Positions 5,021 to 19,161 of a DNA stretch of 22,212 nt are shown here, one piece after another. The notes below the pieces were generated by a model. It worked only from the letters and a program-made list of their open reading frames with translations, did no database searches and was not told the DNA's origin. Position numbers and translations under genes: made by a program. How positions within the stretch are numbered: position 1 is the first letter of the stretch; every line of letters begins with the position of its first letter. Location of the stretch: positions 1 to 22,212 of the IMG/VR virus record IMGVR_UViG_3300016457_000288. The stretch is one strand, 5' to 3'. Source of the DNA: a virus.

Positions 5021-6541
5021 ATGCAAGTATTGTCTCAAATACAAAATTCACGTGAACGGAAACTTGCTGGAGCGATTGGGGTTGGCTTTTTGTTAAACAA
5101 TATGGCTAATTACGATCCGACACATACTACTGTGTTACGCAATCGGTTTGTTAGTGAGATGAGAAAACGTTTCAGGGAATTACGGGGAGTTATTCGTAAA
5201 GCTGTTATTGATCAGGATGTGTTGGGACTTGTTAAACCGGAGACTTATGCATTAGATATTCCTATGCAAAGGGCATTTGATTTTAGATTATCCTCAGAGA
5301 AGATTGATGGATTCATGGGATGGTTAAAAACACAAGAAGATAAGGGAGTATTGGAAATAATTACTTCTCCACAAGTTGGAGGCGCAATTGAGGAACCTTG
5401 GACGAATAAATATATTCAATCCGCCTACAAGAAAGGATTACAGCGGTCCAGAGCAGAATTAAGGAAAGCTGGTTATCCAGTACCCCCTCCGGTTGATGAT
5501 ATGTTTGGTGGGATCAATGCAATATTTCAAGGGCCTGTGCATTCTGATGCTGCTGGAATTTTAATGAGTCGAACGTATAACGAGTTAAAAGGCATTACCG
5601 CAGGAATGGATCAACAGATTAGTAGAGTACTTTCCCAAGGCATAATTGATGGATATGGTCCTGCAACAATGGCGAGGGAAATGAATAATGTTATTAAGAA
5701 ACAAGGAGAGACATTAGCAACGGAGTATATGCGGGCTGAACAAAGAGCAGTGATATTAGCACGCACAGAAATAATTCACGCCCACAACGAGGCGAGTTTG
5801 CAAGAATTTGCAAATTGGGAAGTGGAAGGGGTCAAGACATTAGTTGAGAGTGTTGGTGCTTGGGATAGCCGGATGTGTCAAAAATGTATGGACTTAGCTG
5901 GTATGGATCTTGGGAATGGTCCTGGAATATTTACAAGGAGTCAATGGCGGAACTATTTTCCGGCGCACCCATGTTGCCGTTGTGCCCCGGTTCCAATGGA
6001 TGTGACTGGGGAAAAGAAAGGGAAGGAACTAGCCCCGAGTAGGGATGTCGATTCTGAGTGGAAGTCACTAATGTCGAGAAATGAAGCGGAGGAATGGGTA
6101 AAGGGTTCTGCTCTTGAAAAAGAAGTTTATTACCACGGAACCTCTTCCAATTTACGGGATAGTATTAAACGGAATGGATTTATACCCGGTGAAGGGAGCC
6201 GCGGGGCGGCCTATGGTGAAGGCGTTTATCTTTCTAAAAATCTTGGTATCGCTTCAAAATTTTCCGCTTTCCATAAAAATCCAGCATTGATCAGGACTAA
6301 GGTTAGAGTAATGAAGCCTTATATTGTAAAGGATGTCGACGATTGGCTTTCTATTTGGGATAAAGCAACGGTAGAAGGGTTCGATTTTCGCAAAGCTAGC
6401 CATGTTCAAAAGTATTTTCAGAAACATGGGTACGATGCTTTAGATGTAACAAATTACGAACCTATGGGAGGGATGGTGATTTGGGGACGGAAAGGAAAAA
6501 CTGTAAAAAAGATTACAAGTTTAATGAATGCTTCGGATTGA
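5021..6541 (+). CDS. MuF-like head morphogenesis protein with C-terminal ADP-ribosyltransferase-like domain
   Basis: The protein has 506 residues. Residues about 175-330 form a Phage Mu F-like minor head domain: ILARTEIIHAHNEASLQEFA, then WDSRMCQKCMDLAG (C286, C289) and AHPCCRCAPVPMD (H316, C318, C319, C321), the usual Cys/His cluster. After a linker, residues 364-500 resemble a PARP-like ADP-ribosyltransferase: VYYHGTSSNLRDSIKRNGF (H372), GEGVYLSKN (Y403), KHGYDALDV, and a final EPMGGMVIWGRKG. The H and Y of the H-Y-E triad are visible; E480 is the best third residue but its spacing is uncertain. MuF proteins carrying toxin-like C-terminal domains are known in phages. The protein is likely packaged in the head and delivered with DNA. 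Confidence 0.83.
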   Translation: MQVLSQIQNSRERKLAGAIGVGFLLNNMANYDPTHTTVLRNRFVSEMRKRFRELRGVIRKAVIDQDVLGLVKPETYALDIPMQRAFDFRLSSEKIDGFMGWLKTQEDKGVLEIITSPQVGGAIEEPWTNKYIQSAYKKGLQRSRAELRKAGYPVPPPVDDMFGGINAIFQGPVHSDAAGILMSRTYNELKGITAGMDQQISRVLSQGIIDGYGPATMAREMNNVIKKQGETLATEYMRAEQRAVILARTEIIHAHNEASLQEFANWEVEGVKTLVESVGAWDSRMCQKCMDLAGMDLGNGPGIFTRSQWRNYFPAHPCCRCAPVPMDVTGEKKGKELAPSRDVDSEWKSLMSRNEAEEWVKGSALEKEVYYHGTSSNLRDSIKRNGFIPGEGSRGAAYGEGVYLSKNLGIASKFSAFHKNPALIRTKVRVMKPYIVKDVDDWLSIWDKATVEGFDFRKASHVQKYFQKHGYDALDVTNYEPMGGMVIWGRKGKTVKKITSLMNASD

Positions 6542-6708: not shown

Positions 6709-7794
6709 ATGTCTTTAGTAAAAAGATTTGAATTAGTTTGTAAAAAGTGTGGGAAAATCTTTATTGCGAAAGCATGGAATAGGAAGTATTGTCCTTCTTG
6801 TTTGACAAAGACCTGTGCAATGTGCGGAAAGATTTTTTTGGCAGAAAGTGAATTGAGAAAATATTGTTCTTCTAAGTGCTATCATAATGCTTTGATGGGA
6901 CGTCAAATTTCTATGGAAACACGAAAGAAAATATCTGAAGCAAATAAAGGACATATTGTTTCGGAGGAAACAAGGGGAAAATTGTCGGTGGCGAATAAGG
7001 GACATATTCCATGGAGTAAAGGAAAAAAGATTCCTTGTACTGATAAAAGAAGGGAAAGTATGTCTATTGTAATGGTAGGAAATACTAATGCAAAAGGTTA
7101 TAAACATACTGATGTGGCGAGAAAAAAGATATCGGAGGCAAATAAGGGAAGAAAACATACGGAAGAAACAAAGCGGAAGTTGTCAGAAGCGATGAAGGGA
7201 AATACGTACGCAAAAGGGTTTATATGTTCTGAAGAGACGAGGAAGAGAAGATCTGAGGCAGCAAAAGGGAGAGTGTATCCTAAAGGACGAATATGTACTG
7301 AGGAAACTAGAAGAAAATTATCGCGTGCGAGTAAAGGTAGAAAACATACTAAAGAAACGAAAGAGAAAATTCGTCAAGCTAATTTGGGAAAAAAGAGACC
7401 GGAATTGTCAGGCGATAATAATCCTATGCACACCCATTTGAATGCGTATAAATCTTGTTTTGGTAAGACGGGGCATAGAAAGGATTTAGGTATCTTTGTT
7501 CGATCTACTTGGGAAGCTAATATGATACGAATTTTTAATTGTATGGGACTGCATGTACAATATGAACCACAATCGTTTAGATTATCAAATGGAAAAACGT
7601 ACAGACCTGATTTTTATATCCATGAAACTGAAGAATTGATAGAAGTTAAAGGTCGGTGGATAGGAGATGCAAGGGAAAGAGTTGATCTGTTTCAAAAAGA
7701 ATATCCTGATTTGCCTTTCGAAGTAATTGGTCCTGATAAATATTATCAGTATATTCGGGAATTTGCCGATATGAATTTGAATTTAGAGATATAG
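6709..7794 (+). CDS. Free-standing homing endonuclease: zinc ribbons, NUMOD3 repeats, PD-(D/E)XK nuclease
   Basis: The 361-residue protein has three parts. Residues 11-57 hold two Cys4 zinc-ribbon pairs (C11/C14 with C28/C31; C36/C39 with C53/C57). Residues 65-230 hold about seven NUMOD3-type DNA-binding units of the form (S/T)EETRKKxSEAxKG, starting near 68, 85, 133, 151, 174, 197 and 214, plus a degenerate one near 111. Residues 262-345 hold a PD-(D/E)XK nuclease core: RSTWEANM (E269), YRPDFYI (D301), LIEVKG (E312, K314), similar in layout to Vsr-like homing nucleases. NUMOD3 is a hallmark of phage homing endonucleases. It sits between structural genes with no intron. Codons are AT-richer and Lys-rich relative to the neighbours. 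Confidence 0.88.
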   Translation: MSLVKRFELVCKKCGKIFIAKAWNRKYCPSCLTKTCAMCGKIFLAESELRKYCSSKCYHNALMGRQISMETRKKISEANKGHIVSEETRGKLSVANKGHIPWSKGKKIPCTDKRRESMSIVMVGNTNAKGYKHTDVARKKISEANKGRKHTEETKRKLSEAMKGNTYAKGFICSEETRKRRSEAAKGRVYPKGRICTEETRRKLSRASKGRKHTKETKEKIRQANLGKKRPELSGDNNPMHTHLNAYKSCFGKTGHRKDLGIFVRSTWEANMIRIFNCMGLHVQYEPQSFRLSNGKTYRPDFYIHETEELIEVKGRWIGDARERVDLFQKEYPDLPFEVIGPDKYYQYIREFADMNLNLEI

Positions 7795-7795
7795 A

Positions 7796-9589
7796 ATGCC
7801 TTGGGATTGGAAAAATGCACACGAACATAAACATGGATTGTCTGAAGCACAAGCCAGACAATGGGCTGAAGTTGCGAACAGTGTTCGTAGGAAATGTCTT
7901 ACTGATGGTGGGACAGAAGCAGATTGCGATGCTAGAGCTATAAGACAAGCAAATGGAGTTGTTGGAAATACAGATACCATGAATAAGCTAACGTGTCATA
8001 AAATACAAATACTACATTACGAAATTCGCAGGACTGAATATAATGGAAGGCCACATATTGTGGTTCCGGCAGTCCTTTTCGTAGAAGGCGTGCATTGTGG
8101 AAGTGCGGGACCAGTTTTATATACTGCTGAAGAATTAGCAAAGTTTCCAGCAGCATGGAATGGAAGACCTGTTCCAATTTTTCATCCCCATGATAAGGAT
8201 GGGGTTCCTATTAGTTGTAATGATCCGCAGACGATACAGAGTAGAAGTGTCGGCAATTTATTTAATGTGTGTTTTGAAGACGGTAAGTTGAAGGGTGAAA
8301 TCTGGATTGATGAAGAAAGGATCAAACGGATTAGTCCAACAGCATTATCATATATTCAGACTGGCAGGAAGTTGGAAGTGAGTACAGGTATTTTCAGTGA
8401 TGAAGATCCTGTTTCAGGTGAATGGAATGGTGAGCAATATATATCTATTGCACGGAATCTCAGACCGGATCATTTAGCTCTTTTGCCCGGAGAGCAAGGT
8501 GCCTGTTCTTGGGAAGATGGTTGCGGAATCAGAAGCAATCAAAAGGAGGTTATAAATGTGAAGCAAGATGTGTCAGATAAGACAGTAAAGTCGCCGGAGA
8601 TGCCGAATGAGTCAATACCGATCAGTACATTGAATGAAGGGGTTGAATCACAAAAGGGACTCAAGGCATTATTTACACGAGTTTATGCTAAATTGAGTTC
8701 TGTTTTCGGTGAATTGAAAGCTCAGGAAATGAGTTACAATGATGTAATTACTAAGTTACAGGTGTCTCTTGATTCTATGGACAGTCCAACAGCAATTAAT
8801 TACATTAAGGCTGTTTACGATGACTACTTCATTTATGAGGTTCGTCCTGGGGAACAGGCGACTGGTGTAGAAAGAAAATTGTATAAACGGAAGTACACAA
8901 TTAAGGATAACGGAGAAATTGAGATGGATAATGAACTTGTCCCTGTTATCCAACAAATAGATTATGTTGAATTATCTGATCATTCAGATGATGTTGATGT
9001 AAATAATGAAAAGGAAGGTGAAGATAAAATGAGTGAAGAAAAAACGGGGTGCCCTGAAAAGGTTACTCAGTTAATTGAAAATGAGTCTACTAAGTTCGAT
9101 GAGACTGATCGGGAATGGTTGGAGACTCTTAATGAAAGCCAGATTGACAAACTTATTCCTGAAAAAGTAGAGGCTAAGGAAGACAAACCCACTACGAATG
9201 ATAAGGAAGATACGTCTGTTGTTAATAGTAAGGAAGATAAATCTGGGAATGAGAAAATTCCTCCTCTTGCTACATTTGAGAGCATACTTGATAGTGCAGA
9301 TCCAAAAGTGAAAGAGCAGCTTTTGTATGGTGCACGTTCTTACGAGAAAGATAGAACTGCATTGATCGAAATGATTGCAAATCAGGAGGGCAGTAAATTT
9401 TCTAAGGAAGCACTTGAAACTACTTCCATAGAAATGTTGGAAAAGATGGCGTCCTTGATTACACCTACTGTTAACTATCAAGGGAATGTGGGTGGAATAA
9501 CGCCAGAAGTGACGACACATAGTAATGTAGTTAAACCAATGTCTGCACTTGGTTTTACTTTTAACAAAAAGGAAGACAAAAAGGAATAG
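7796..9589 (+). CDS. Prohead protease fused to scaffold (DUF2213-like)
   Basis: The protein has 597 residues. Residues 10-57 are a helical N-terminal segment (LSEAQARQWAEVANSV, then AIRQANGVV) common on this family. Residues 65-245 match DUF2213, a capsid maturation protease: GRPVPIFHPHDKDG (H130 or H132) and LEVSTGIFSDED (S196) are the likely His and Ser of the active site. Residues 255-597 are long, acidic, low in aromatics and helical, as expected of a scaffolding domain, and end just before the decoration and capsid genes. Two strong internal ribosome sites suggest that the scaffold is also made alone. ATG 7796 follows the endonuclease stop by one base. Confidence 0.82.
   Translation: MPWDWKNAHEHKHGLSEAQARQWAEVANSVRRKCLTDGGTEADCDARAIRQANGVVGNTDTMNKLTCHKIQILHYEIRRTEYNGRPHIVVPAVLFVEGVHCGSAGPVLYTAEELAKFPAAWNGRPVPIFHPHDKDGVPISCNDPQTIQSRSVGNLFNVCFEDGKLKGEIWIDEERIKRISPTALSYIQTGRKLEVSTGIFSDEDPVSGEWNGEQYISIARNLRPDHLALLPGEQGACSWEDGCGIRSNQKEVINVKQDVSDKTVKSPEMPNESIPISTLNEGVESQKGLKALFTRVYAKLSSVFGELKAQEMSYNDVITKLQVSLDSMDSPTAINYIKAVYDDYFIYEVRPGEQATGVERKLYKRKYTIKDNGEIEMDNELVPVIQQIDYVELSDHSDDVDVNNEKEGEDKMSEEKTGCPEKVTQLIENESTKFDETDREWLETLNESQIDKLIPEKVEAKEDKPTTNDKEDTSVVNSKEDKSGNEKIPPLATFESILDSADPKVKEQLLYGARSYEKDRTALIEMIANQEGSKFSKEALETTSIEMLEKMASLITPTVNYQGNVGGITPEVTTHSNVVKPMSALGFTFNKKEDKKE
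8544..8560 (+). promoter_or_regulatory. Internal Shine-Dalgarno and GTG start for separate scaffold protein
   Basis: AGGAGGT at 8544-8550 stands seven bases before GTG 8558, which is in frame with the gene from 7796 and corresponds to V255, exactly at the end of the protease domain. Starting there gives a 343-residue scaffold ending at 9589. This mirrors the nested protease/scaffold arrangement of lambda C/Nu3. Confidence 0.65.
9011..9031 (+). promoter_or_regulatory. Second internal start in the scaffold region
   Basis: The run AAGGAAGGTGAAGATAAA leads into an in-frame ATG at 9029 (M412). The run closely resembles the leaders of the genes at 9605, 10132 and 20403 (AAGGAGGTGA then ATAAA and ATG). 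It would give a 186-residue acidic C-terminal product beginning MSEEKTGCPEK. A chance purine-rich codon run in an acidic protein is possible. Confidence 0.4.
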
Positions 9590-9604
9590 GAGGTGAGATA
9601 AAAA

Positions 9605-10114
9605 ATGAGTTTACATGCAATTGCGTTAAAAAAGTATGGTGATAGTATCATCAAGGAAATTACTGGATCAGGTACGATCTATCCAGGAATGTTGCTGGAA
9701 CGAAGTTATAGTAGCGGCAGTATAGTTAAAGCACATAGTGCAGAGGGGCAGAATTGTCAGCCCTTATTTGCTGTTGCAGATGCACTTCAAGGGAATGATA
9801 TTGATGATGCATATGCTGATGGTGAGTTGGTTCGTTGTGAATACTTCAGGCCAGGTGATGAAGTTTATGCTATCCTGGAAGATGGTGAATCCGTAAGTGT
9901 GGGGGATTATCTTGAGTCAAATGGTGCCGGTTATTTGCAAAAGCACACTGCGGATGTTCATGCGGATAGTTCCGGTATGACAGGGGACTTCACAGCGTAT
10001 ACAAATCAGATTGTTGGTGTTGCTCTTGAGGTTTTGGATCTATCTGGTAGTTCTGGTGAGGAATCTTCAGGACCACTCGCTTATCAGAAACGTCTGAAAA
10101 TTGAGATTATATAG
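9605..10114 (+). CDS. Probable capsid decoration (structural cement) protein
   Basis: The 169-residue protein has a strong start: AGGAGGTGAGATAAAAA before ATG 9605. It opens HAIALKKYGDSIIKEITGSG, then has alternating short beta-like segments with a GDEVYAILEDGESVSVGDYL block and a Gly/Ser-rich tail. Small beta-rich proteins directly between scaffold and major capsid genes are usually head decoration or cement proteins, and the sequence resembles those in DUF1073-portal phages. There is no signal peptide and no membrane segment. It would bind the outer capsid and stabilise it after expansion. The position and fold style are good evidence; the exact family is not identified. Confidence 0.65.
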   Translation: MSLHAIALKKYGDSIIKEITGSGTIYPGMLLERSYSSGSIVKAHSAEGQNCQPLFAVADALQGNDIDDAYADGELVRCEYFRPGDEVYAILEDGESVSVGDYLESNGAGYLQKHTADVHADSSGMTGDFTAYTNQIVGVALEVLDLSGSSGEESSGPLAYQKRLKIEII

Positions 10115-10131
10115 AAGGAGGTGAAATAAAA

Positions 10132-11193
10132 ATGATTACTGCACAAGTACACAATTTATACGAACAAAATGTTATTTCCAATGCGTATCACGCTAGTGGA
10201 TTGAATGCGCATAATATGCGTCCGTGGGTTGAGGCTGATGGGAAGGCATATGTGACCAATATCAGGATTAATGCCAAAGGCGAATTGGAAGAGTATGCTG
10301 TTCCAGTTGTCAATGGCACTCTTCGTAGGGATGAGTGGAAGGCGTTAGATGATGCTGTTTTAAAGATCAGTGAAGAACGTCTTGTTGGTATTGCTGATCT
10401 CAAGGCCAGAGGATTGACCCATAATATTACAAATGGTATGGGCAAGACAGTTCTTGAGTATCATGACATGTCGAATGCACTTGATGCCGAGATGACAATG
10501 GACGGAATTACTAAAGGGAATAATGATACTGTAGATTATGGTGTAAATTATATGCCATTACCGATAGTCCATTCCGATTTCCGTTTGAACATGCGTATTT
10601 TAGCAGCGTCCAGAAACATGGGGGACTCATTGGATACCACACTGGTGGAAAGGGCAACTCGTAAGGTGTCCGAGAAGCTTGAGGAGTTCCTGTTTACTGA
10701 TACCAGTTTTACATTTGGCGGGGGGACAATTTATACTTATGTTTCCCAACCAAATATAAATACGGTTACTCTAAGCAATAACTGGGACACCTCCGCTGCA
10801 ACTGGCGCTGAAATCATTGATGATGTCGTTACAATGAAACAAAGCAGTATTACTGCTATGCATTATGGTCCTTGGATGTTGTACATTCCGACTGCATATG
10901 AAACTAAGTTGGATGAGGACTATGTCTCTGGATATGCAAAGACTATCCGTGAGCGCATCAAATCCATTGATGGGATTATTGATGTCAAGGTGGCGGATAA
11001 GCTCCCGGCAAATACCGTTCTACTTGTTCAAATGACTTCTGATGTTGTTCGTCTTGTAACTGGTATGCCGCTTAACACGGTTCAATGGGATATTCAGGGT
11101 AAAATGGCGCAGGACTTTAAGGTCATGACCATTCAGGTTCCTCAGATTAGGAGTGATCAGGATGGAAACTCTGGTATCGTGAAGTTGGCATAG
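10132..11193 (+). CDS. Major capsid protein (HK97 fold)
   Basis: The 353-residue protein has the strongest ribosome site of the window (AAGGAGGTGAAATAAAA before ATG 10132), as expected for the most abundant virion protein. It follows scaffold and decoration genes. The sequence resembles encapsulin-like/DUF2184-type HK97-fold capsid proteins: a DEWKALDDAVLKISEERLVG helix, a SDFRLNMRILAASRNMGDSL segment, ATRKVSEKLEEFLFTD (spine-like helix), and a C-terminal domain with GPWMLYIPTAYETKLDEDY, IRERIKSIDGIIDVKVADKL and VLLVQMTSDVVRLVTGMP. There is no obvious N-terminal delta domain of HK97 length, agreeing with a separate scaffold. Confidence 0.85.
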   Translation: MITAQVHNLYEQNVISNAYHASGLNAHNMRPWVEADGKAYVTNIRINAKGELEEYAVPVVNGTLRRDEWKALDDAVLKISEERLVGIADLKARGLTHNITNGMGKTVLEYHDMSNALDAEMTMDGITKGNNDTVDYGVNYMPLPIVHSDFRLNMRILAASRNMGDSLDTTLVERATRKVSEKLEEFLFTDTSFTFGGGTIYTYVSQPNINTVTLSNNWDTSAATGAEIIDDVVTMKQSSITAMHYGPWMLYIPTAYETKLDEDYVSGYAKTIRERIKSIDGIIDVKVADKLPANTVLLVQMTSDVVRLVTGMPLNTVQWDIQGKMAQDFKVMTIQVPQIRSDQDGNSGIVKLA

Positions 11194-11211: not shown

Positions 11212-11263
11212 TGAATAGTAATCAAACTATTCATATGTCCTCCAGAAAGTGGAGGGTGTAATT
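11212..11263 (+). promoter_or_regulatory. Two small hairpins after the capsid gene, the second covering the next ribosome site
   Basis: TGAATAG (11212-11218) pairs with CTATTCA (11227-11233). CCTCCA (11239-11244) pairs with TGGAGG (11250-11255) across a five-base loop, and the GGAGG of its right arm is the Shine-Dalgarno of the gene starting at 11264. No T-run follows. The second hairpin could reduce translation of the gene after the highly expressed capsid gene. Confidence 0.4.
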
Positions 11264-11623
11264 ATGGAAAGACGAAAGTCAACAATTACTGAAGACGTGG
11301 TTAATGTGAAAAAGGTTGAAATAGAGGAGCCACGTCTTCGATGGCGAAAAATAGGTGGTGGAATTCATAACCATCGGGATGGTCAGATTGTTCGACGGGG
11401 GGAAATTCTTGTTGCGACTCAATTGGAAATTGAACCCTTTAAGAACTTATTCGTTCCCCTTGATCCTTTAGTTGATATAAAGGAAGAACAGCCAACTAAA
11501 CGATTATTTATTGAGCACAGAGGGGGTGGAAAGTATAACGTAATTAATGAGAATACCGGAAAACCAATAAATGATGAGTTGCTGACTAGAGAACAAGCAG
11601 AGAATTTGATTAACGATGAGTAG
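11264..11623 (+). CDS. Small post-capsid hypothetical protein (119 aa)
   Basis: ATG 11264 is preferred, since GGAGGGTG lies at 11251-11258; an in-frame GTG at 11249 would fall in front of that site. The basic N-terminus (MERRKSTITED) is followed by a compact segment WRKIGGGIHNHRDGQIVRRG then FKNLFVPLD, and a C-terminal module HRGGGKYNVINENTGKPIND ending LTREQAENLI. Short proteins of this shape follow capsid genes in related phages, but no function is known to me. It overlaps the glycosyltransferase fusion by eight bases, which ties the carbohydrate cassette to the capsid transcript. Confidence 0.6.
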   Translation: MERRKSTITEDVVNVKKVEIEEPRLRWRKIGGGIHNHRDGQIVRRGEILVATQLEIEPFKNLFVPLDPLVDIKEEQPTKRLFIEHRGGGKYNVINENTGKPINDELLTREQAENLINDE

Positions 11624-14057
11624 ACCTTGGCATGTCCCTGAACTATGGCCGAATAGCACTGTGTATATTATAGGTGGTGGGCCGAGTTTAAAAGAAGAAG
11701 ATTTGACTCCGTTGCATAATTCTGCACGAAGAGTAATTGGCGTGAATAATGCTTATCAATTAGGATCTTGGATTGATCTCTGTTTCTTTGGGGATTGTTC
11801 ATGGTTTAATCATCATAGAAAAGGGTTGTTGAAATTTGCAGGGTTGAAAGTAAGTTGCTGCCCACGATTTGGTGGACGGAATGAGAAGTGGCCAGGGATT
11901 AAGTTCCTTCCAAAGGATAAAGAAAAACGAAATGGGATCAGCAATCGAAAAAATAGGAATAAAATAGCTTGGAATAAAAACTCAGGTTATTCAGCGATTA
12001 ATTTAGCATATTATCTTGGGGCAAAGCGAATAGTATTGCTTGGTTTTGATATGCATCGTGGACCAAACAATGAAACACATTGGCATGCAGGACACAAATG
12101 GGGTGTCCCGAAAGACACAAAGCAACGTCGGAAATTAAATGAACCTTATGCAAGATTTCTTCCAAATACGGAAGCTATTGCTAAAGATGCGGAGCGATTA
12201 GGTATAGAGATTATAAACTGCTCGATGGATAGTGCAATTACGCAGTTTAAAAAGATTCCGCTAAAAGAAATAGTTCAGACAGATTCTCATGAGTTACTCG
12301 TTTCTAAAAGTGGGAATGAACTTGTGGTATTAAAAGAAGAGGAAGTTGCAAGTACTTCTATAAGTATTGCAATGACCTCATATAATTCTGCAAAGTTTAT
12401 TACAGAAGCATTAGATAGTATTCTCATGCAGAGTCATGCAAAGTGGGAGCTGATTATAGTAGACGATTGTTCAGCAGATAACACTCTTGATGTGCTAGAA
12501 AAGTACATCACAGAACATAATATAAAAGAAAAGGTTATAGTAATTAAGCATGATGAGAATCAAGGATATGGTGCGAGTTTAGGGAAAGCTATTGCATCAA
12601 CGTCCAATGATTTAGTTGTTATACTTGATTCTGATGATTGTCTATTTACGGGCAATGTATTTCAAACATGCATTAGAGTCCATTTAGCACATCCGGAAGC
12701 ATCAATGACGTATAGTAATTATATGGTATGTGATAAAAATATGCATCACAGGTCAAATATGAATACCAAACAGATTGGGAAGGGAGAGACTTGGTTATAT
12801 AAAGAGGGGAATGAACTCAAAACAGGGTTAAAAATTAGTCATTTGAAAACGATAAAACGTACATTCTATGATAAAACTGAAGGAATTGAGCCAACGCTTA
12901 GAAAGATGGTGGATAAGGATTTGATTTTGAAGTTAAGTGAAGTTGGTTCACTTGTTCATATAGATAAAATTTTAATGAAGTATCGTCGGCATAAAAATTC
13001 ATTGACTTCTACTTTTCGTCATCTTTCGAAAGAAGAGCAAGGGAAACTTAGACGTGATCGGGATCAAATCTATGAAAAAGCAATTGAACGACGGAGAGCA
13101 CAAAATGGGGAGACTCTTCGTGTATACGTTGATGGGTCTAAACGGAATGCAGTTAGTTTAATGTTTCCATATTGGGAACGAAATGGGGTTGTCTTAGTTG
13201 ATAATTTAAAAGAAGCAGATGTTCAGTTTTCTGTTGTACGAAAAAATGTTGAGTCCAATATACCTACTTTACTGCGAATAGATGGGGTATACTACGATAA
13301 AGAGTGTCGAGACGATAGAAATATAGCTATTGGACATAGTCATTCTATTGCAGATGCCCTTGTATATCAAAGTGATTGCTCTCGACAAATGTGTGAGAAG
13401 TGCCTTCCCAAGAGGAAGTCAGGTTGTTGTTGGCAAATTATTTACAATGGCGTGGATGCATCAAAGTGGCGCAGTCCACTTGAACATCAGGGGATAAATG
13501 TTATTTCTTGTTCTAAATGGCGTAGGGTAAAACGCCTTCCAGAGATGATTGAAATATTCAAAAGGTTCAGAACAATTTATCCTGAAGCGGTATTTCATGT
13601 AATTGGTCCAATGGGCAAAGGAGCGAAAGAAATTCTTTGCGATAATGTAATCTATTATGGGCATTTGGCGCATTCTGAAATTCAAAAAATGTATCAAACA
13701 GGGGATGTTTCTTTACATCTATGCAAAAAAGATTCTTGTCCAAGTAATGTGCCTGAGTCAATAGCAGCTGGTATTCCTGTTGTTACTACTAATCTATGTG
13801 GTGGTGCGGCAGAAATGAGCAAACTTGCTGAAGGATGTAGTATTGTTTATGAAGGTGAGCAGTGTTTTGATGCAGATTACATTTATCAAGATGAGTATAA
13901 TAAAATGACGGATGTCGTACAAGAAAAATGCGTGCAGGCAATGATTAATATTGTTAAGAATAAGATGCGTGTAGAATTACCTGTAGAGTTAACTATCGAA
14001 TATGTCGCCAGGAAGTATCTTACAATGATGCGGGGAATATGTGATGGAAGTTCATAG
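11616..14057 (+). CDS. Three-domain glycosyltransferase: DUF115/sialyltransferase-like + GT2 + GT4
   Basis: The protein has 813 residues. Residues 14-215 form a Rossmann-like domain with VYIIGGGPSLKEEDL (16-30), ARRVIGVNNAYQLG, and SGYSAINLAYYLGAKRIVLL followed by GFD (123-145). This pattern is shared by DUF115/MptE-like and CST-I-like (GT42) proteins. Residues 248-480 are a GT-A family 2 domain: SIAMTSYN (250-257), IIVDDCSADNTL (D283/D284) and VVILDSDDCL (DxD at 338-340). Residues 501-805 are a GT-B family 4 domain: LLRIDGVYYD, NGVDASKWR, SCSKWRRVKRLPEMI, and CPSNVPESIAAGIPVVTTN (E714, with D706 in the place of the first Glu of EX7E). A Cys cluster (C588-C605) is unusual. The three catalytic modules could build successive linkages. 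Confidence 0.85.
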   Translation: MSRPWHVPELWPNSTVYIIGGGPSLKEEDLTPLHNSARRVIGVNNAYQLGSWIDLCFFGDCSWFNHHRKGLLKFAGLKVSCCPRFGGRNEKWPGIKFLPKDKEKRNGISNRKNRNKIAWNKNSGYSAINLAYYLGAKRIVLLGFDMHRGPNNETHWHAGHKWGVPKDTKQRRKLNEPYARFLPNTEAIAKDAERLGIEIINCSMDSAITQFKKIPLKEIVQTDSHELLVSKSGNELVVLKEEEVASTSISIAMTSYNSAKFITEALDSILMQSHAKWELIIVDDCSADNTLDVLEKYITEHNIKEKVIVIKHDENQGYGASLGKAIASTSNDLVVILDSDDCLFTGNVFQTCIRVHLAHPEASMTYSNYMVCDKNMHHRSNMNTKQIGKGETWLYKEGNELKTGLKISHLKTIKRTFYDKTEGIEPTLRKMVDKDLILKLSEVGSLVHIDKILMKYRRHKNSLTSTFRHLSKEEQGKLRRDRDQIYEKAIERRRAQNGETLRVYVDGSKRNAVSLMFPYWERNGVVLVDNLKEADVQFSVVRKNVESNIPTLLRIDGVYYDKECRDDRNIAIGHSHSIADALVYQSDCSRQMCEKCLPKRKSGCCWQIIYNGVDASKWRSPLEHQGINVISCSKWRRVKRLPEMIEIFKRFRTIYPEAVFHVIGPMGKGAKEILCDNVIYYGHLAHSEIQKMYQTGDVSLHLCKKDSCPSNVPESIAAGIPVVTTNLCGGAAEMSKLAEGCSIVYEGEQCFDADYIYQDEYNKMTDVVQEKCVQAMINIVKNKMRVELPVELTIEYVARKYLTMMRGICDGSS

Positions 14058-15369
14058 AGGAAAATTTATATTTAAGCGACTTAAAATGGGTTTTTCTTTA
14101 TCTCGGTATGGGGATGGTGAACTTAAAGTTATTCGTGGCGGTTCAATAACTAATATGCAGAAGTATGACGAAGTATTGAAACAGAAACTCCTAAAAGTAT
14201 TTGAACATCCCTTATCTAAATTGCTTATAGGAATTCCTGATCCTCTTTGTACTCGTCCTTATGTTTCAAAATTTCATAGGTACTTTGATAAGTTCATTTT
14301 GGGGAGATCTGCAAAAGAGAAATCTGTTTTTGTTTCTTCTTTTTTTTCTCGTCCGAGTTTGGTTAGCGAGGACTCCGAAGTATTTTTCGGGAAAATGAAG
14401 GGGATCTGGAAAGAGAGAGAAATCGTTCTTATTAATTTTAATCCAGAACTTCCTGATCATTTTCTGTTTAGAGATAATAAAAGTGAATTTATCCAAATTT
14501 CAAGGAATAATTGTTTTTCGGAATATAAACGGATAATGAGTTCTTGTCAGCAGTTTTATAATCAAAATAAGTTATTTCTCATCTCTGCTGGACCAGTGGC
14601 GACTTGTCTTGCTTATGATTTATGTTCTGTAGGAGAACAGGCGATTGATATTGGAGGGATTGCTTTTGAACAAAGTCTTTTTGCTGGGGATTTACATCCT
14701 GAACGATGGGTATATCAGGATAGTTATAAGATCAAAAGGGGGTATTTGAAAGGAATTAACGATATGAGATTAAATGATGTAAAAACAAATATCACGCATA
14801 CAAAAGCGGGTTTACAGAGAAGGAAGGATGCCGGAATTGTTATGAGTGAAGGTAATTTCGTTAGATTATTGAATGCCTTCATGTATTTTGTACAATATAC
14901 AGATAAACAACTTCCTCTTTTGGACGTAGGCACACGTGAAGGTTGGTTTCTCAAGTTTTTAACGAATACGGGATACGTTGATGTACAAGCAATAGAAGTC
15001 TGCCCGGACGCTATTTCCATGGTAAGAAGAAGCGGATTTAAGGTGACGGAAATGGATGTCCAAAAGATGGAATTTCAAGATATGTTTGGGACTATTACGG
15101 CGATTCATGTTTTAGAGCATTGTTCGAATCCCGTTAAAGCGGTGGAGAATATTTATAATGCCTTAAGAAGGAATGGGGTACTATATGTAGAAATTCCCTT
15201 AGAAACGAAGGTTGATCCGAATCGTTCAGGTCATTTTAGCTGTTTTCCGGAGGTAAAGAATTTGTTGGTTTTGTTTGATAATAGGTGGAAGGTGTTATCA
15301 CACGAAGTACAGATAATGAATAAAGCGGGGACGAAAAAGAATTGTAGAGCACTTTTTAAGAAAATATAG
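14044..15369 (+). CDS. GT-D glycosyltransferase (DUF1792-like) fused to SAM methyltransferase
   Basis: The protein has 441 residues. Residues 17-236 match the GT-D/DUF1792 pattern: FSLSRYGDGELKVIRGG with the DGE motif at 24-26, LLIGIPDPL, VLINFNPELPDHF, LFLISAGPVATCLAYDLCS and EQAIDIGGIAFEQ. Residues 265-441 are a class I methyltransferase: LLDVGTREGWFL (SAM-binding loop about 292-303), acidic IEV (E318), and AIHVLEHCSNPVKAVENIYN (HVLEH at 355-359) followed by NGVLYVEIPLE. The second domain lacks an obvious protein target site and most likely methylates the sugar. ATG 14044 with GGGGA seven bases upstream is preferred over GTG 14041. It overlaps the previous gene by 14 bases. Confidence 0.82.
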   Translation: MEVHRGKFIFKRLKMGFSLSRYGDGELKVIRGGSITNMQKYDEVLKQKLLKVFEHPLSKLLIGIPDPLCTRPYVSKFHRYFDKFILGRSAKEKSVFVSSFFSRPSLVSEDSEVFFGKMKGIWKEREIVLINFNPELPDHFLFRDNKSEFIQISRNNCFSEYKRIMSSCQQFYNQNKLFLISAGPVATCLAYDLCSVGEQAIDIGGIAFEQSLFAGDLHPERWVYQDSYKIKRGYLKGINDMRLNDVKTNITHTKAGLQRRKDAGIVMSEGNFVRLLNAFMYFVQYTDKQLPLLDVGTREGWFLKFLTNTGYVDVQAIEVCPDAISMVRRSGFKVTEMDVQKMEFQDMFGTITAIHVLEHCSNPVKAVENIYNALRRNGVLYVEIPLETKVDPNRSGHFSCFPEVKNLLVLFDNRWKVLSHEVQIMNKAGTKKNCRALFKKI

Positions 15370-15379
15370 GGAAAATGTA

Positions 15380-16396
15380 ATGGACATATTTAAGGATAAG
15401 ACGATTTTGGTAACAGGTGGAACTGGGTCATTAGGAAAAGCGTTGGTTAAGCAGTTACTGTCGAGGACGCAAGGAAAACCTAAAAAGGTTATCGTCTTTT
15501 CAAGAGACGAGGCTAAACAGCATTATATGAGAACGGAATGTTATCGTGAGAAGTGGTGTGAAACTAACAAACTTGAATTTATGCTTGGGGATATTCGTAA
15601 TTATGCAAGTGTTTGTTCTGCCATAAAAAATGTTGATATTATTGTTAATACGGCGGCGTTAAAACAAGTTCCAGTCTGTGAGTATTTTCCGGAACAAGCA
15701 GTATTGACCAATTGCATGGGGGTACAAAATATAATTCAGGCAATTAATGAAAACGATTATCCTGTAGAAGTTGTAGTAATTATCAGTACAGATAAAGCAT
15801 GTAAACCAGTCAATGTTATGGGGATGACAAAGGCCATTCAAGAACGCATGGCAATTGTAGCGAATATAGCTAATCCTAATACCCGGTTTGTTTGCGTACG
15901 GTATGGAAATATTATGTCCAAGCTTTCTGTTGGTTCCGTGATTCCATTATTTCATCAACAAATCAAAGACGGGGGACCTGTTACAGTTACTTCTTCTGCA
16001 ATGTCCCGTTTCATGTTCAACATGGAACAAGCCATTGATATTGTTTTTACTGTGGTAAAAGAGGCATTGCCTGGAGAGATATATGTTCCAATTCTTTCTT
16101 CATTTAAAGTGATTGATGTTGCAAAAGCGTTAGTAGAATCAAGGAAATGTGATATTAAAATAATTGGCATCCGTCCAGGTGAAAAACTCCATGAAATTAT
16201 GATTTCTGAAGATGAATATGCACGAGTTTTTCAGCGTGGTGATTATTATGTGATCCCTCCGATGTTGCCTGAGCTTTCTAACAAGGAAGTAGAGGAAAAT
16301 GTTTTGACGGGGGAGTATTGCTCTTCTGATACGCTTCTTAGTTTTCAAGAAACGAAAGACTTATTGAAAGAACATGATTTATTGGTAAGTGAATAG
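15380..16396 (+). CDS. Nucleotide-sugar 4,6-dehydratase/epimerase-like SDR (Polysacc_synt_2 type)
   Basis: The protein has 338 residues. It carries ILVTGGTGSLGKALVKQLL (NAD(P)-binding GxxGxxG, 13-19), VIVFSRDEAKQHYM, MLGDIRNYAS, VNTAALKQVPVCEYFPEQAV and STDKACKPVNVMGMTK. These are hallmarks of UDP-GlcNAc 4,6-dehydratase/C5-epimerase relatives (FlaA1, PseB, CapE/FnlA group). The usual YxxxK active site reads MGMTK here, with Met147 where Tyr is expected and Lys151 kept. I recall Met at this place in CapE/FnlA-type enzymes, so it need not mean loss of activity. The C-terminus has GIRPGEKLHEIMISEDE, typical of the group. It would supply an activated deoxy-sugar for the neighbouring transferases. 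Confidence 0.88.
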   Translation: MDIFKDKTILVTGGTGSLGKALVKQLLSRTQGKPKKVIVFSRDEAKQHYMRTECYREKWCETNKLEFMLGDIRNYASVCSAIKNVDIIVNTAALKQVPVCEYFPEQAVLTNCMGVQNIIQAINENDYPVEVVVIISTDKACKPVNVMGMTKAIQERMAIVANIANPNTRFVCVRYGNIMSKLSVGSVIPLFHQQIKDGGPVTVTSSAMSRFMFNMEQAIDIVFTVVKEALPGEIYVPILSSFKVIDVAKALVESRKCDIKIIGIRPGEKLHEIMISEDEYARVFQRGDYYVIPPMLPELSNKEVEENVLTGEYCSSDTLLSFQETKDLLKEHDLLVSE

Positions 16397-16401
16397 GTAA
16401 T

Positions 16402-17166
16402 ATGAAAATATATTTAAATTTAGGTAAGAGTACATCGATGCGAATGATGAACGCAGTTATGTATGCTTCTTTGCTTGATTTAGGTCACGAGTTAGTTTCA
16501 TATGATGTTGCTGACATTGTTATTGGGTTAAGGGATTTGCGGGTACAAGATGAGAGTAAGGTATGGCGGGATTTAAGAAAATACACAGGCAAAAAATATA
16601 TTTTGTATCAGGTAGAACAGTATGAACATAGGAGAGAGTTGGTAGATTCCTTGTATAAATTTGGTCTGGATGAAATTTGGGGATTTGATATAGGTAATGA
16701 AAAAGAGATTTATACTCCATTTGGGTATCATCCTTGTTTACTTTTTGAATCGGTATTTTCGGAGGATATAGATGTCGGCTTTTTTGGTTGGCAACGAGGG
16801 AGACGTAATGTTTGGCGGAAGAATGTTCGGAATAAATGGACGGGTATGAATTCGTTTGATCCTGTGGTTTTGGAAAGAAATATTACGAGAGCGAGAATAA
16901 ATTTGAACATACATTATTATTCAGCTACACAATTTACTGAATGGTTAAGGATCGCTTATTTTTTAGCAAACAAACAGTTCTTCATTAGTGAAAGATTTTA
17001 TTGTCCGATTGACGTTCCGCAATTTGATACACCTGAAACATATGACGCATTAGTGGAGTATTACTTGAAGCATTCAGAAGAAAGGAAACGGAAAGCGAAC
17101 AAGATGTCTAAGATATATAAAGAGCACTTTGATATGAGAGATATATTACATGCGAGGGGATTTTAA
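16402..17166 (+). CDS. GT-B type glycosyltransferase (CgeB/Glyco_trans_1_2-like)
   Basis: The protein has 254 residues and starts at ATG 16402, five bases after the dehydratase stop. It opens MKIYLNLGKSTSMRMMNAVM with a short nucleotide-binding-like beta/alpha start. It then has KYILYQVEQYEH, EIWGFDIGN, EDIDVGFFGW (DVGFFG 124-129), ARINLNIHYY (164-173) and FTEWLRIAYFLANKQFFISE (E180, R183). This DVxFxG / INLNxH / ExRxxE-like order is the C-terminal Rossmann domain of CgeB/YkvP-type glycosyltransferases. It is shorter than a full two-domain GT-B, with a compressed N-terminal half. The acceptor and donor cannot be read from sequence. Confidence 0.7.
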   Translation: MKIYLNLGKSTSMRMMNAVMYASLLDLGHELVSYDVADIVIGLRDLRVQDESKVWRDLRKYTGKKYILYQVEQYEHRRELVDSLYKFGLDEIWGFDIGNEKEIYTPFGYHPCLLFESVFSEDIDVGFFGWQRGRRNVWRKNVRNKWTGMNSFDPVVLERNITRARINLNIHYYSATQFTEWLRIAYFLANKQFFISERFYCPIDVPQFDTPETYDALVEYYLKHSEERKRKANKMSKIYKEHFDMRDILHARGF

Positions 17167-17830
17167 AAAGTTAACGATTGTCTGCTTTTGGTGGGGGGAT
17201 TGGTGTGCTCCTTATGGGCAGGAATATGTAGAGAAGTTACAGAGGATGGTTTCCCGGCATCTGACCATTCCACATAACTTTGTGTGTTTTACAGATCGGT
17301 TTTCTGAACTGGTAAAGCGAGAAGAGATTGAGTATCATCCATTGCCGCAAGATGTGGTTAACTGGAAAGGAAACCTGACAAAGTTCTATGTTTATTGTCC
17401 AAATAATGGTCTTTCAGGTCGTATAATTATGATAGATTTGGATACTGTTATTGTTCAAAATGTAGATGAGATGTTGTCTTATAATGGGGATTGGTGTGGT
17501 ATTCAGGCGATGAATTCGAGAAGACATCATATTGGTGGTGGATTAGTTTCTTTTGACCATAGTAAATGGGCGTGGTTGTGGGAGATGGTTAAAAATCAGC
17601 CAGAGAAGTGGGCACAGCGAACGAACGGAAATGAACGGTTTGTGTATAAAAAAGTTCTGGTTGCACCAGATCTGTGGCAGAATTTATACCCTGGTCAAAT
17701 AGTTAGTTATAAAAAACACGTACGTCGGAAAAACGGTCGAGTGCCTGAAGGCGTTTACTTAGTGGCCTTCCATGGGCGTCCAAGACCGCACGAAGTTGAC
17801 AGTTGTTGGATTTGCCAATACTGGAGGTAA
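17150..17830 (+). CDS. GT-A fold glycosyltransferase with DxD motif
   Basis: The protein has 226 residues. TIVCFWWGDWCAPYGQEYVE near the start, FVCFTDR (44-50), a KFYVYCP helix, GRIIMIDLDTVIVQNVDEML with DLD at 96-98, and a final YLVAFHGRPRPHEV (H208) follow the layout of GT8-like retaining enzymes: UDP-sugar site, metal-binding DxD, and late metal-binding HG. ATG 17150 is inside the previous gene (17-base overlap) and has no strong ribosome site, so translation is probably coupled. No membrane segment is present, so it would act in the cytoplasm on a soluble or membrane-anchored acceptor. Confidence 0.75.
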   Translation: MRGDFKKLTIVCFWWGDWCAPYGQEYVEKLQRMVSRHLTIPHNFVCFTDRFSELVKREEIEYHPLPQDVVNWKGNLTKFYVYCPNNGLSGRIIMIDLDTVIVQNVDEMLSYNGDWCGIQAMNSRRHHIGGGLVSFDHSKWAWLWEMVKNQPEKWAQRTNGNERFVYKKVLVAPDLWQNLYPGQIVSYKKHVRRKNGRVPEGVYLVAFHGRPRPHEVDSCWICQYWR

Positions 17831-17832
17831 TT

Positions 17833-17934
17833 ATGCCCGTAAAAATTGTTCTTCCTGGTGCCAAGCCAGAGAGCATTTATTCTCAGAGAGTTCATGTTTT
17901 TGATTCGAATGGGACGGAGCTAAAAGGAACATGA
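17833..17934 (+). CDS. 33-residue peptide within the carbohydrate cassette
   Basis: ATG 17833 follows GGAGGT at 17823-17828, one of the better ribosome sites in the cassette, and the ORF fills the gap between the GT-A enzyme and the sulfotransferase exactly. The product begins MPVKIVLPGAKPESIYSQRV and ends with SNGTELKGT. It has no membrane segment and no recognised family. It looks like a beta-hairpin or a domain start; it might also be a remnant of a longer gene. Confidence 0.5.
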   Translation: MPVKIVLPGAKPESIYSQRVHVFDSNGTELKGT

Positions 17935-17938
17935 AATA

Positions 17939-18658
17939 ATGATTAAAAAGATGTCTTCCCCTATCCTTATTACTGGGTGTGCTCGTAGTGGAACCAGTAT
18001 GATCGCAGGAACGATAAATCTTTGTGGGGCTTTCGGTGGGGACATGTCCCCTGGGAATTCTAATAATCCAAAAGGGATGTTTGAGAATGCAGCTATTCGT
18101 CAACGAATAGTTAAGCCTTATTTACGACAAATGGGAGTTGATCCACTTGGACAATTTCCGTTATTGGATATTGATAATTTACAGATTCCACGTAATTGGA
18201 ATAAACGGGTGACGCAAGTATTTAAAGATCAGGGATACAAGGGTGGCCCATGGATGTACAAGGGAGCTAAGATGTGCTTATTCTGGCCTGTGTGGGATTA
18301 TGCCTTTCCTAATGCAAAGTGGATCATCGTTAGACGTAGAACGGGCGATATTGTTTATTCTTGTATGCACACTGGTTTTATGCGTGCTTTTCGTAATCTT
18401 ACTAATCAGAAGAAGGTAGGTGCCTCTAATGAGCAAGAAGGATGGATTTGGTGGGTGAATCAACATTTGGATCGGTTTAGAGAAATGATTGATGCTGGGT
18501 TGAATTGCCGGATTGTGTGGCCTGAACGTATGGTAGATAATGATTTTTCTCAAATGATGGAAACTATAGAATGGTTAGGATTAAAATGGAACGATGATGT
18601 TTTATCATTCGTTTCTCCAAAGCTTTGGAAATCAAGGAAGAAGAAATATGATTTATAA
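17939..18658 (+). CDS. Sulfotransferase
   Basis: The protein has 239 residues. PILITGCARSGTSMIAGTIN (P-loop-like 5'-phosphosulfate loop GCARSGTS, 13-20) and AKWIIVRRRTGDIVYSCMHT (3'-phosphate motif around R132-S141) are the two PAPS-binding signatures of the sulfotransferase superfamily. A region with FENAAIRQRIVKPYLRQMG follows, and it ends with IEWLGLKWND. It transfers sulfate from PAPS to a sugar or other hydroxyl. PAPS must come from the host, as no cysC/cysN-like gene is visible in the window. The start ATG 17939 lies just downstream of the preceding stop. Its place at the end of a run of glycosyltransferases suggests the acceptor is the glycan they build. Confidence 0.83.
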   Translation: MIKKMSSPILITGCARSGTSMIAGTINLCGAFGGDMSPGNSNNPKGMFENAAIRQRIVKPYLRQMGVDPLGQFPLLDIDNLQIPRNWNKRVTQVFKDQGYKGGPWMYKGAKMCLFWPVWDYAFPNAKWIIVRRRTGDIVYSCMHTGFMRAFRNLTNQKKVGASNEQEGWIWWVNQHLDRFREMIDAGLNCRIVWPERMVDNDFSQMMETIEWLGLKWNDDVLSFVSPKLWKSRKKKYDL

Positions 18659-18737
18659 ATGGGGAAACGGTAGTTTAATATTCTTTTTAATCTTTGGTTT
18701 TACTGGGCTAACTTTAGTTCTAAGCGGTTTAAAATGA
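18648..18737 (+). CDS. 29-residue single-span membrane peptide
   Basis: ATG 18648 overlaps the sulfotransferase end by 11 bases and has AGGAAG about eight bases upstream. The product is MIYKWGNG, then a hydrophobic stretch of about 18 residues (SLIFFLIFGFTGLTLVLS), then GLK. It is predicted to be one inner-membrane helix. Such peptides can anchor or modulate membrane complexes; no family is recognised. A 15-codon ORF starts in its stop (18734-18781) and ends at the connector gene. Confidence 0.45.
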   Translation: MIYKWGNGSLIFFLIFGFTGLTLVLSGLK

Positions 18738-18783: not shown

Positions 18784-19161
18784 ATGAGTGCTCGTGTTAC
18801 AGAAAGTGAAGTCAAGGAAATCATTGATACAGATTTGACGGATATTACAGCTTTCATTACTGCTGCAAATCTTACGGTTACAAAACGTTTGAGTTCTGGA
18901 GTTCTTAGTGCAGATCAATTGAAGGAAATCGAGAGATGGTTTACTGCCCACTTAATTGCGGGGACAAATAGGGATATGGGGGCACGGGACGTTGATAAAG
19001 AAAAAACACTTGATGCGGAAGTGACCTACGCAGGAAAGACAGGAATGGGATTAGAAGCAACTCGATATGGGCAGGTTGTGTTGACTTTAGACAGTACCGG
19101 GAAAATGGCGCAGTCTGGCAAAGGTGACGTATTCTTTAAGGCTGTGACTTCTTTTGATTAA
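18784..19161 (+). CDS. Head-tail connector (adaptor) protein
   Basis: The 125-residue protein has GAGGAAA ahead of ATG 18784. The helical N-terminal half (ESEVKEIIDTDLTDITAFIT, then LSADQLKEIERWFTAHLIAG) followed by a small extended C-terminal part (YAGKTGMGLEATRYGQVVL) is the pattern of DUF4054/gp6-like adaptors that sit under the portal ring. The position before the head-closure, gp10 and terminator genes agrees. It resumes the structural operon interrupted by the carbohydrate cassette. Confidence 0.72.
   Translation: MSARVTESEVKEIIDTDLTDITAFITAANLTVTKRLSSGVLSADQLKEIERWFTAHLIAGTNRDMGARDVDKEKTLDAEVTYAGKTGMGLEATRYGQVVLTLDSTGKMAQSGKGDVFFKAVTSFD

Follow-up and report, generated by a model that had tools for sequence, protein, structure and literature searches.

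A probable virion-glycan locus between capsid and connector genes in an uncultivated tailed-phage lineage: conserved GT42-like and predicted sulfotransferase ends around an exchanged middle

Here we describe a cassette of glycosyltransferase (GT) and related genes, ending in a predicted sulfotransferase, that lies within the head operon of an uncultivated virus. The window, i.e., the whole stretch of DNA analysed, is the 22,212-base IMG/VR virus fragment IMGVR_UViG_3300016457_000288. Upstream of the cassette, Pfam and PHROG matches identify TerS, TerL, portal, MuF, protease/scaffold, decoration, and major capsid protein (MCP) genes, and downstream lie a connector-like DUF4054 protein, Neck1, and tail genes. 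Among relatives of this virus, the cassette is the rule, with two conserved ends and a middle that is swapped. The features, with lengths and positions in amino acids (aa) where given, are the following.

10132..11193, + strand: major capsid protein, flanking gene and candidate acceptor (phrog_771, 6e-28; phrog_264, major head protein, 7e-9; 432 IMG/VR relatives).
11249..11623, + strand: orf124, conserved post-capsid protein, candidate acceptor or head protein (in 71/74 relatives).
11616..14057, + strand: three-domain glycosyltransferase, GT42-like, GT2, and GT4 (Pfam/PHROG matches).
11616..12305, + strand: GT42/MptE-like domain (phrog_4603, 1e-39; AF2 model with a predicted local distance difference test score, pLDDT, of 91; Foldseek match to CstII, 1.3e-5).
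12363..12785, + strand: GT2 domain of GT-A fold, aa 250-390 (PF00535, 4.4e-26).
13470..13832, + strand: GT4-type domain of GT-B fold, aa 619-739 (PF00534, 5.1e-17).
14044..15369, + strand: GT-D glycosyltransferase fused to an S-adenosylmethionine (SAM) methyltransferase (PF08759, 9.4e-30; PF13489, 2.4e-13).
15380..16396, + strand: uridine diphosphate–N-acetylglucosamine (UDP-GlcNAc) 4,6-dehydratase-like short-chain dehydrogenase/reductase, PseB/CapE/FnlA-like, with STDK...MGMTK (PF02719, 4.5e-85; CapE, 2.6e-64).
16402..17166, + strand: probable GT-B-like glycosyltransferase, a weak match (PF13524, E=0.019, below its cut-off).
17150..17830, + strand: glycosyltransferase (phrog_1962, 5.4e-28).
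17833..17934, + strand: 33-aa peptide (GGAGGT ribosome site).
17939..18658, + strand: predicted sulfotransferase of the 3'-phosphoadenosine 5'-phosphosulfate (PAPS) type, usually the last cassette gene (PF13469, 2.5e-6; AF2 pLDDT 96; Foldseek matches to Stf1 and tyrosylprotein sulfotransferases, TPSTs).
18648..18737, + strand: open reading frame (ORF) for a 29-aa hydrophobic peptide, which may not be a gene (overlaps the sulfotransferase stop).
18784..19161, + strand: head-tail connector-like protein, flanking gene (DUF4054, 0.0023, weak; phrog_37884, 1.4e-7; phrog_302, 0.022).

A sequence-only reading of the window had described six enzyme ORFs in one overlapping chain between the capsid and connector genes, with overlaps of 8, 14, 17, and 11 bases and gaps of 2-10 bases, and both the + strand chain and its junctions agree with what we read from the sequence. 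orf124 and the GT fusion overlap by 8 bases (11616-11623), and the fusion overlaps the GT-D gene, which starts at ATG 14044, by 14. Gaps of 10 and 5 bases then separate the GT-D/methyltransferase from the dehydratase and the dehydratase from the weak GT-B-like gene, which in turn shares 17 bases (17150-17166) with the phrog_1962 glycosyltransferase. The 33-aa peptide (ATG 17833) begins after a 2-base gap behind 17830 and is followed after 4 bases by the sulfotransferase, whose end overlaps the 29-aa peptide ORF by 11 bases (18648-18658). No terminator-like site was found on the + strand between 9500 and 20500 of the window, and promoter-like sites in that range are fewer than in shuffled sequence. 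Because the frames overlap and terminators are absent, the cassette is presumably co-expressed with the head genes late in infection. Rfam families and tRNAs were not found in the window.

Relatives were collected with the capsid protein (19 when used alone, 432 as an alignment) and with the sulfotransferase (63 and 373, respectively), and at most the best 80 loci were read per scan. Mapping the window proteins on all loci gave a survey set of 74 non-redundant capsid-to-connector stretches, window included, after contigs sharing 95% identity across 80% of the gap had been collapsed into one; ORFs were called mechanically. Forty-six of these loci were found by the capsid protein only and are thus unselected for the cassette; this MCP-seeded subset leans towards capsid proteins that share at least 50% identity with that of the window, and all counts given describe IMG/VR contigs.

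The earlier reading had held such a system within the head genes to be unusual. For this lineage it is no singular oddity but the rule: a GT42-like gene directly follows the capsid region in 44/46 MCP-seeded loci and occupies a fixed head-operon position in 70/74 loci overall, where it is the first cassette gene in 68 of the 70. GT42-like gene and sulfotransferase occur together in 34 of the 46, and only two have neither. At the other end, the sulfotransferase is the last cassette gene before the connector in 53/58 loci, directly preceded in 23/58 by homologues of the glycosyltransferase at 17150..17830; three contigs (L022, L028, and L029 in our numbering) carry a GT42-like/sulfotransferase pair just past the connector gene. 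The capsid-connector gap measures 0.65-9.2 kb in the 46 MCP-seeded loci and up to 11 kb in all 74. Gene junctions are tight (92% at 20 bases or less, 75% overlapping), and only two ORFs over 100 aa lie on the opposite strand. Since this chain is conserved in dozens of independent contigs, chance is excluded as its source. In every locus read, the cassette lies in the head operon, apart from replication genes.

The comparison of the gap with and without the cassette, which that reading had proposed, also delimits its distribution, as the cassette is prevalent within the lineage and mostly absent from distant capsid relatives. Those with 31-41% capsid identity mostly have a gap of 0.24-0.7 kb without a cassette (four at about 41% are unassigned), and none was found in the isolated relatives StAshley, Hardycor1, and K1M. 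In cassette-free relatives, the connector homologue directly follows the MCP region. Because most distant relatives and these isolates lack the cassette, and L157 and L256, inside the lineage, lack it too, the lineage probably acquired the locus close to its base, with a few later losses.

Between its ends, the cassette is highly variable. Single-linkage clustering of 547 gap ORFs placed orf124 in 71 loci, the GT42-like/GT-A group in 70, and the sulfotransferase in 59, and the remaining clusters include more than 100 singletons. For every remaining cluster of 110 aa or more, a single representative was compared with Pfam; the matches were GT2, several families of methyltransferase, FkbM, radical SAM, epimerases, GT9, GT29, cupin, capsule-type enzymes, and further sulfotransferases. 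How closely two capsids are related says almost nothing about what the cassettes contain: where capsid proteins are 90% identical or more, two loci have on average just 30% of middle families in common, and phages with 95-97% identical capsid proteins differ in the cassette interior. For example, L130 and L133 (capsid 95% identical) have flanking DNA about 80% identical around unrelated interiors of 1.5 and 3.2 kb, and the interiors of L167 and L173 are likewise unrelated between flanks 84-86% identical. In L122 the connector comes straight after the GT42-like gene, whereas L133 holds some 4.5 kb at this place. Alleles are thus replaced or deleted at one fixed site, much as bacterial capsule loci behave. 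Minimal cassettes also occur, with the GT42-like gene only (L122), the sulfotransferase only (L088), or just these two (L120). The ends behave differently from this exchanged middle, which the sequence-only reading had not noted. GT42-like distances track MCP distances (Mantel r=0.65), and the sulfotransferase tracks the MCP about as the tail tube does (Mantel 0.32 vs 0.36). Mean pairwise identity in the mixed locus set is about 46% for the GT42-like domain, 52% for the sulfotransferase, and 60% for the MCP; an impression from sulfotransferase-seeded loci that the sulfotransferase is more conserved than the capsid was dropped on these figures.

Structure-based family assignment was carried through for the GT42-like and sulfotransferase domains, which were modelled and matched; the other enzymes are assigned by sequence profile, only weakly so for the GT-B at 16402-17166. 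The N-terminus of the GT fusion falls in a phage family annotated 'alpha-2,3-sialyltransferase' (phrog_4603, 1e-39). Its model finds CstII from Campylobacter as best Foldseek match (E 1.3e-5, template modelling (TM) score 0.55), and the top eight PDB matches are all sialyltransferases, seven CstII and one from Pasteurella (E 1e-5 to 1e-4). The motifs GGGPSL (aa 20), NSG (122), LLGFDM (141), and HWH (155) are conserved in the alignment; we take them to lie at the CstII nucleotide site and near the catalytic His. In most relatives this domain is a separate protein of ~235 aa, and in eight loci it forms part of long, fused proteins. The dehydratase lies far above the PF02719 cut-off and matches CapE at 2.6e-64 and a PseB profile at 5e-88, while the curated equivalog cut-offs for PseB and FnlA were not reached.

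The protein at 17939..18658 is a predicted PAPS-type sulfotransferase, judging by its 5'- and 3'-phosphate-binding motifs and its modelled fold. It carries RSGTS (aa 16), FEN (48), YKGAK (107), and RRRTGDI (132); R16, E49, N50, K108, R133, and S141 are invariant in an 18-sequence alignment, and all of these but N50 are expected PAPS-binding and catalytic positions. The model (pLDDT 96) matches Stf1 and TPSTs at 14-18% identity, with Stf1 first in the Foldseek ranking, TPSTs making up most of the top 16, and 3-OST also matching; in a search with a profile of 63 family members, TPSTs lead, TPST1 being found at 1.2e-6. In addition, R16, K108, and R133 sit at the TPST RSGTT, NKDP, and 3'-phosphate site, and in L088 the sulfotransferase stands in the gap without any glycosyltransferase. 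All this would fit a protein-tyrosine sulfotransferase whose direct target is a virion protein and which does not depend on the glycan enzymes. We nevertheless consider this unlikely, as enzymes of this fold that sulfate glycans or small molecules (Stf1, 3-OST) share the TPST likeness, the gene is almost always found alongside glycosyltransferases, and ten loci have a second, divergent sulfotransferase among their glycan genes.

Phages often carry glycosyltransferases for seroconversion, and the middle genes resemble capsule/O-antigen genes, as would suit a cassette that converts the O-antigen or capsule on the host surface and blocks superinfection. The proteins speak against it. Judged by hydropathy only, no transmembrane segment is predicted in 413 of the 428 cassette proteins, one in 15, and two or more in none; no flippase, polymerase, membrane-bound glycosyltransferase, or lipid-carrier transferase was recognised among them. 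This near-total lack of membrane helices and of the enzymes named favours an acceptor in the cytoplasm over surface conversion, which the late head position and the two-enzyme minimal form (L120, with GT42-like gene and sulfotransferase and nothing else) make a rather improbable explanation.

No better is the case for hypermodification of the phage DNA, in which sulfated sugars on its bases would protect against restriction; we give it slightly less credence still. Viral GT and sulfotransferase genes have been suggested for nucleotide or protein modification (PMC10829341), and one relative (L221-L224) has FolE, QueD, QueE, and QueF, albeit outside the head operon. Among 16 long relatives, on the other hand, a thymidylate-synthase/hydroxymethylase-type gene (PF00303) occurs in one and tRNA-guanine transglycosylase (TGT; PF01702) in none, and Tet/JBP was not found in a search without a working positive control. 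The separation of the cassette from replication genes counts against this explanation as well, and rapid glycotype swapping better suits an exposed surface. That the locus makes a soluble or released product, or is cargo without a single shared function kept as a recombination hotspot, would agree with the heavy turnover of the middle genes, but is very improbable given the conserved GT42-like and sulfotransferase ends and the gene fusions.

A protein of the particle suits the gene order best. GT42-like genes also stand beside head genes in unrelated phages (phi_D3, PAJU2, IME307, S20) and in L097, and this similar placement, together with the late head-gene position, points to a virion protein as the acceptor, with capsid, decoration, and tail proteins as candidates. 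L097 is an alphaproteobacterial provirus-like contig with an unrelated capsid (phrog_29), in which MCP, GT42-like fusion, methyltransferase, and sulfotransferase follow one another (7814-10687).

As to the donor, kdsB, encoding the synthetase for cytidine monophosphate (CMP)–3-deoxy-d-manno-octulosonic acid (Kdo), occurs in 5/84 portal-bearing loci, between TerL and portal or between portal and MuF. Four of these loci extend past the capsid gene, and a GT42-like gene follows in all four; kdsA is found in one long relative (L221-L224, the G010 relative). GT42 enzymes use CMP-activated ulosonates, and since kdsB or kdsA accompanies the cassette in some relatives, the donor of the GT42-like enzyme may be CMP-Kdo or a relative, as extrapolated from a minority of members. 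The kdsB-like genes in the head operon include L156:562-1260, L174:1670-2431, and L109:5990-6781, and L156 also has a galE-like gene between MuF and protease.

Taken together, we think it probable, from gene content and predicted structures, that the region is a modular virion-glycan locus, resembling a capsule locus, through which a particle protein would receive a glycan that is GT42-primed and often sulfated. The idea of a particle decorated with a sulfated, methylated glycan, put forward in the sequence-only reading, thus survives as the best explanation of a fixed head-operon GT42-like gene, essentially soluble enzymes, no recognised flippase, polymerase, or lipid-carrier enzyme, kdsB in some relatives, and comparable cassettes among the head genes of unrelated phages; what falls is its singularity. 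The roles at mucus or matrix and in immune shielding that the same reading had raised remain speculative, as no result favours mucus or immunity in particular. The genes would be expressed late, with the head genes, and soluble enzymes would assemble and attach the glycan in the cytoplasm, on an abundant particle protein from the same operon. The GT42-like transferase would act first, with a CMP-activated ulosonate such as CMP-Kdo taken from the pool of a Gram-negative host or supplied by phage KdsA/KdsB. Variable glycosyltransferases, dehydratase/epimerases, and methyltransferases would then extend and tailor the chain, which in the window probably contains a 6-deoxy-amino sugar derived from UDP-GlcNAc, plus a methyl group, and the last-encoded sulfotransferase would add sulfate from host PAPS. 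The step order and the site of the sulfate are given as we infer them. Replacement of the middle by recombination, with the ends kept, would leave close relatives with different glycotypes.

Critically speaking, several points weigh against this glycan locus reading. All members of the lineage are uncultivated, and a host glycan or DNA might instead be the acceptor. Membership of the GT42-like domain is one of fold and motifs, with a low TM score (~0.55), and a profile search of the domain against PDB gave no GT42 match. kdsB is present in only the five loci mentioned, and few relatives were sampled below about 45% MCP identity. Finally, 10/46 MCP-seeded loci have the GT42-like gene without the sulfotransferase, so sulfation is not essential to the system.

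Host assignment was attempted by a sulfotransferase genome scan, but the only contigs of the lineage that it found lay in metagenome bins, and these belong to unrelated phyla (Deltaproteobacteria, Firmicutes, Spirochaetota, Balneolales, Bacteroidota, and Zixiibacteriota); we do not trust this binning. L102, the only sulfotransferase match in a genome not labelled as metagenome-assembled, showed no head genes among the proteins scanned. Two different queries found no sulfotransferase relative among INPHARED phages. Among other viruses, a cyanophage and giant viruses have proteins with a predicted sulfotransferase fold.

Some neighbouring genes deserve a short description. orf124 has no Pfam or PHROG match and is also present in the cassette-free L157; its conserved blocks are WRKIGGGS and GWYDVVN...NEKAL, the second being duplicated in L178. 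The 33-aa peptide has no homologue in the relatives' loci. The MuF minor head protein (5021-6541) ends in an ADP-ribosyltransferase-like domain (PF00644, 3e-6; ART-PolyVal, 3e-4), which is possibly delivered with the DNA. Between MuF and protease, a NUMOD3-repeat endonuclease-like gene (6709-7794) resembles a free-standing homing endonuclease, and a stretch homologous to it adjoins the sulfotransferase upstream in L025 and L178.

Several known systems resemble parts of this locus. Mycobacteriophages Che8 and Rita are known to have glycans on their capsids, and phage-encoded glycosyltransferases are proposed to modify the phages' own capsid proteins (Freeman et al. 2023, cited in PMC11256854). 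The likeness lies in a phage encoding glycosyltransferases that would act on its own virion; in the related Maravista, these genes lie near the 3' end of the genome, whereas in the window they lie between MCP and connector. Closer in position is Tetraselmis viridis virus S20 (NC_020840; L236/L271), where about 5.5 kb with two GT42-like genes, glycosyltransferases, and a methyltransferase separate the head genes from head closure Hc1, but no sulfotransferase was detected and the record proposes no function. The Pseudomonas phages phi_D3 (Yuavirus), PAJU2, and IME307 (Detrevirus) have a two- or three-gene version in the head-tail block, with a GT42-like gene and a methyltransferase but without sulfotransferase, placed after the connector genes in Detreviruses. 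To our knowledge, the Che8/Rita system includes no conserved sulfotransferase or GT42-like enzyme. At the enzyme level, CstII-type GT42 sialyltransferases and Maf/MptE-like proteins share fold and motifs with the GT42-like domain at low sequence identity, just as Stf1 and TPSTs share fold and PAPS-binding motifs with the window sulfotransferase. Bacterial capsule and O-antigen loci have the same conserved ends and exchangeable middle, but here these lie in a virus head operon in which no flippase or polymerase was recognised.

Phage sulfotransferases have been recorded with a function called unclear (PMC10580990) and listed as auxiliary metabolic genes (PMC8290583). Neither a conserved sulfotransferase within a phage head operon, nor swapped virion-glycan cassettes, nor a sialyltransferase near capsid genes turned up in a literature search of limited coverage. 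Virion glycosylation by phages is already known; the conserved sulfotransferase and the allele swapping are, as far as checked, new.

Virion glycosylation by phages has been established only recently and in few phages. The locus described here suggests that, across a large environmental lineage, phages glycosylate their virions as a rule, usually with sulfation, and that glycotypes are exchanged like bacterial capsules. We see an even chance that this is a widespread tailed-phage lineage with a viral counterpart of the capsule locus, in which allelic, recombining cassettes, with a GT42-like enzyme first and a sulfotransferase last, give the virion of each phage its own, often sulfated, surface, possibly with protein-tyrosine sulfation. 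Sulfated phage particles would, if real, be the first known to us, and phage sulfotransferases would gain a place in phage biology. Phage surface chemistry would then be a fast-evolving trait bearing on adsorption, particle stability, and recognition, and the recurrence of GT42-like genes in isolated Pseudomonas phages makes the glycosyltransferase half of the proposal testable in the laboratory.

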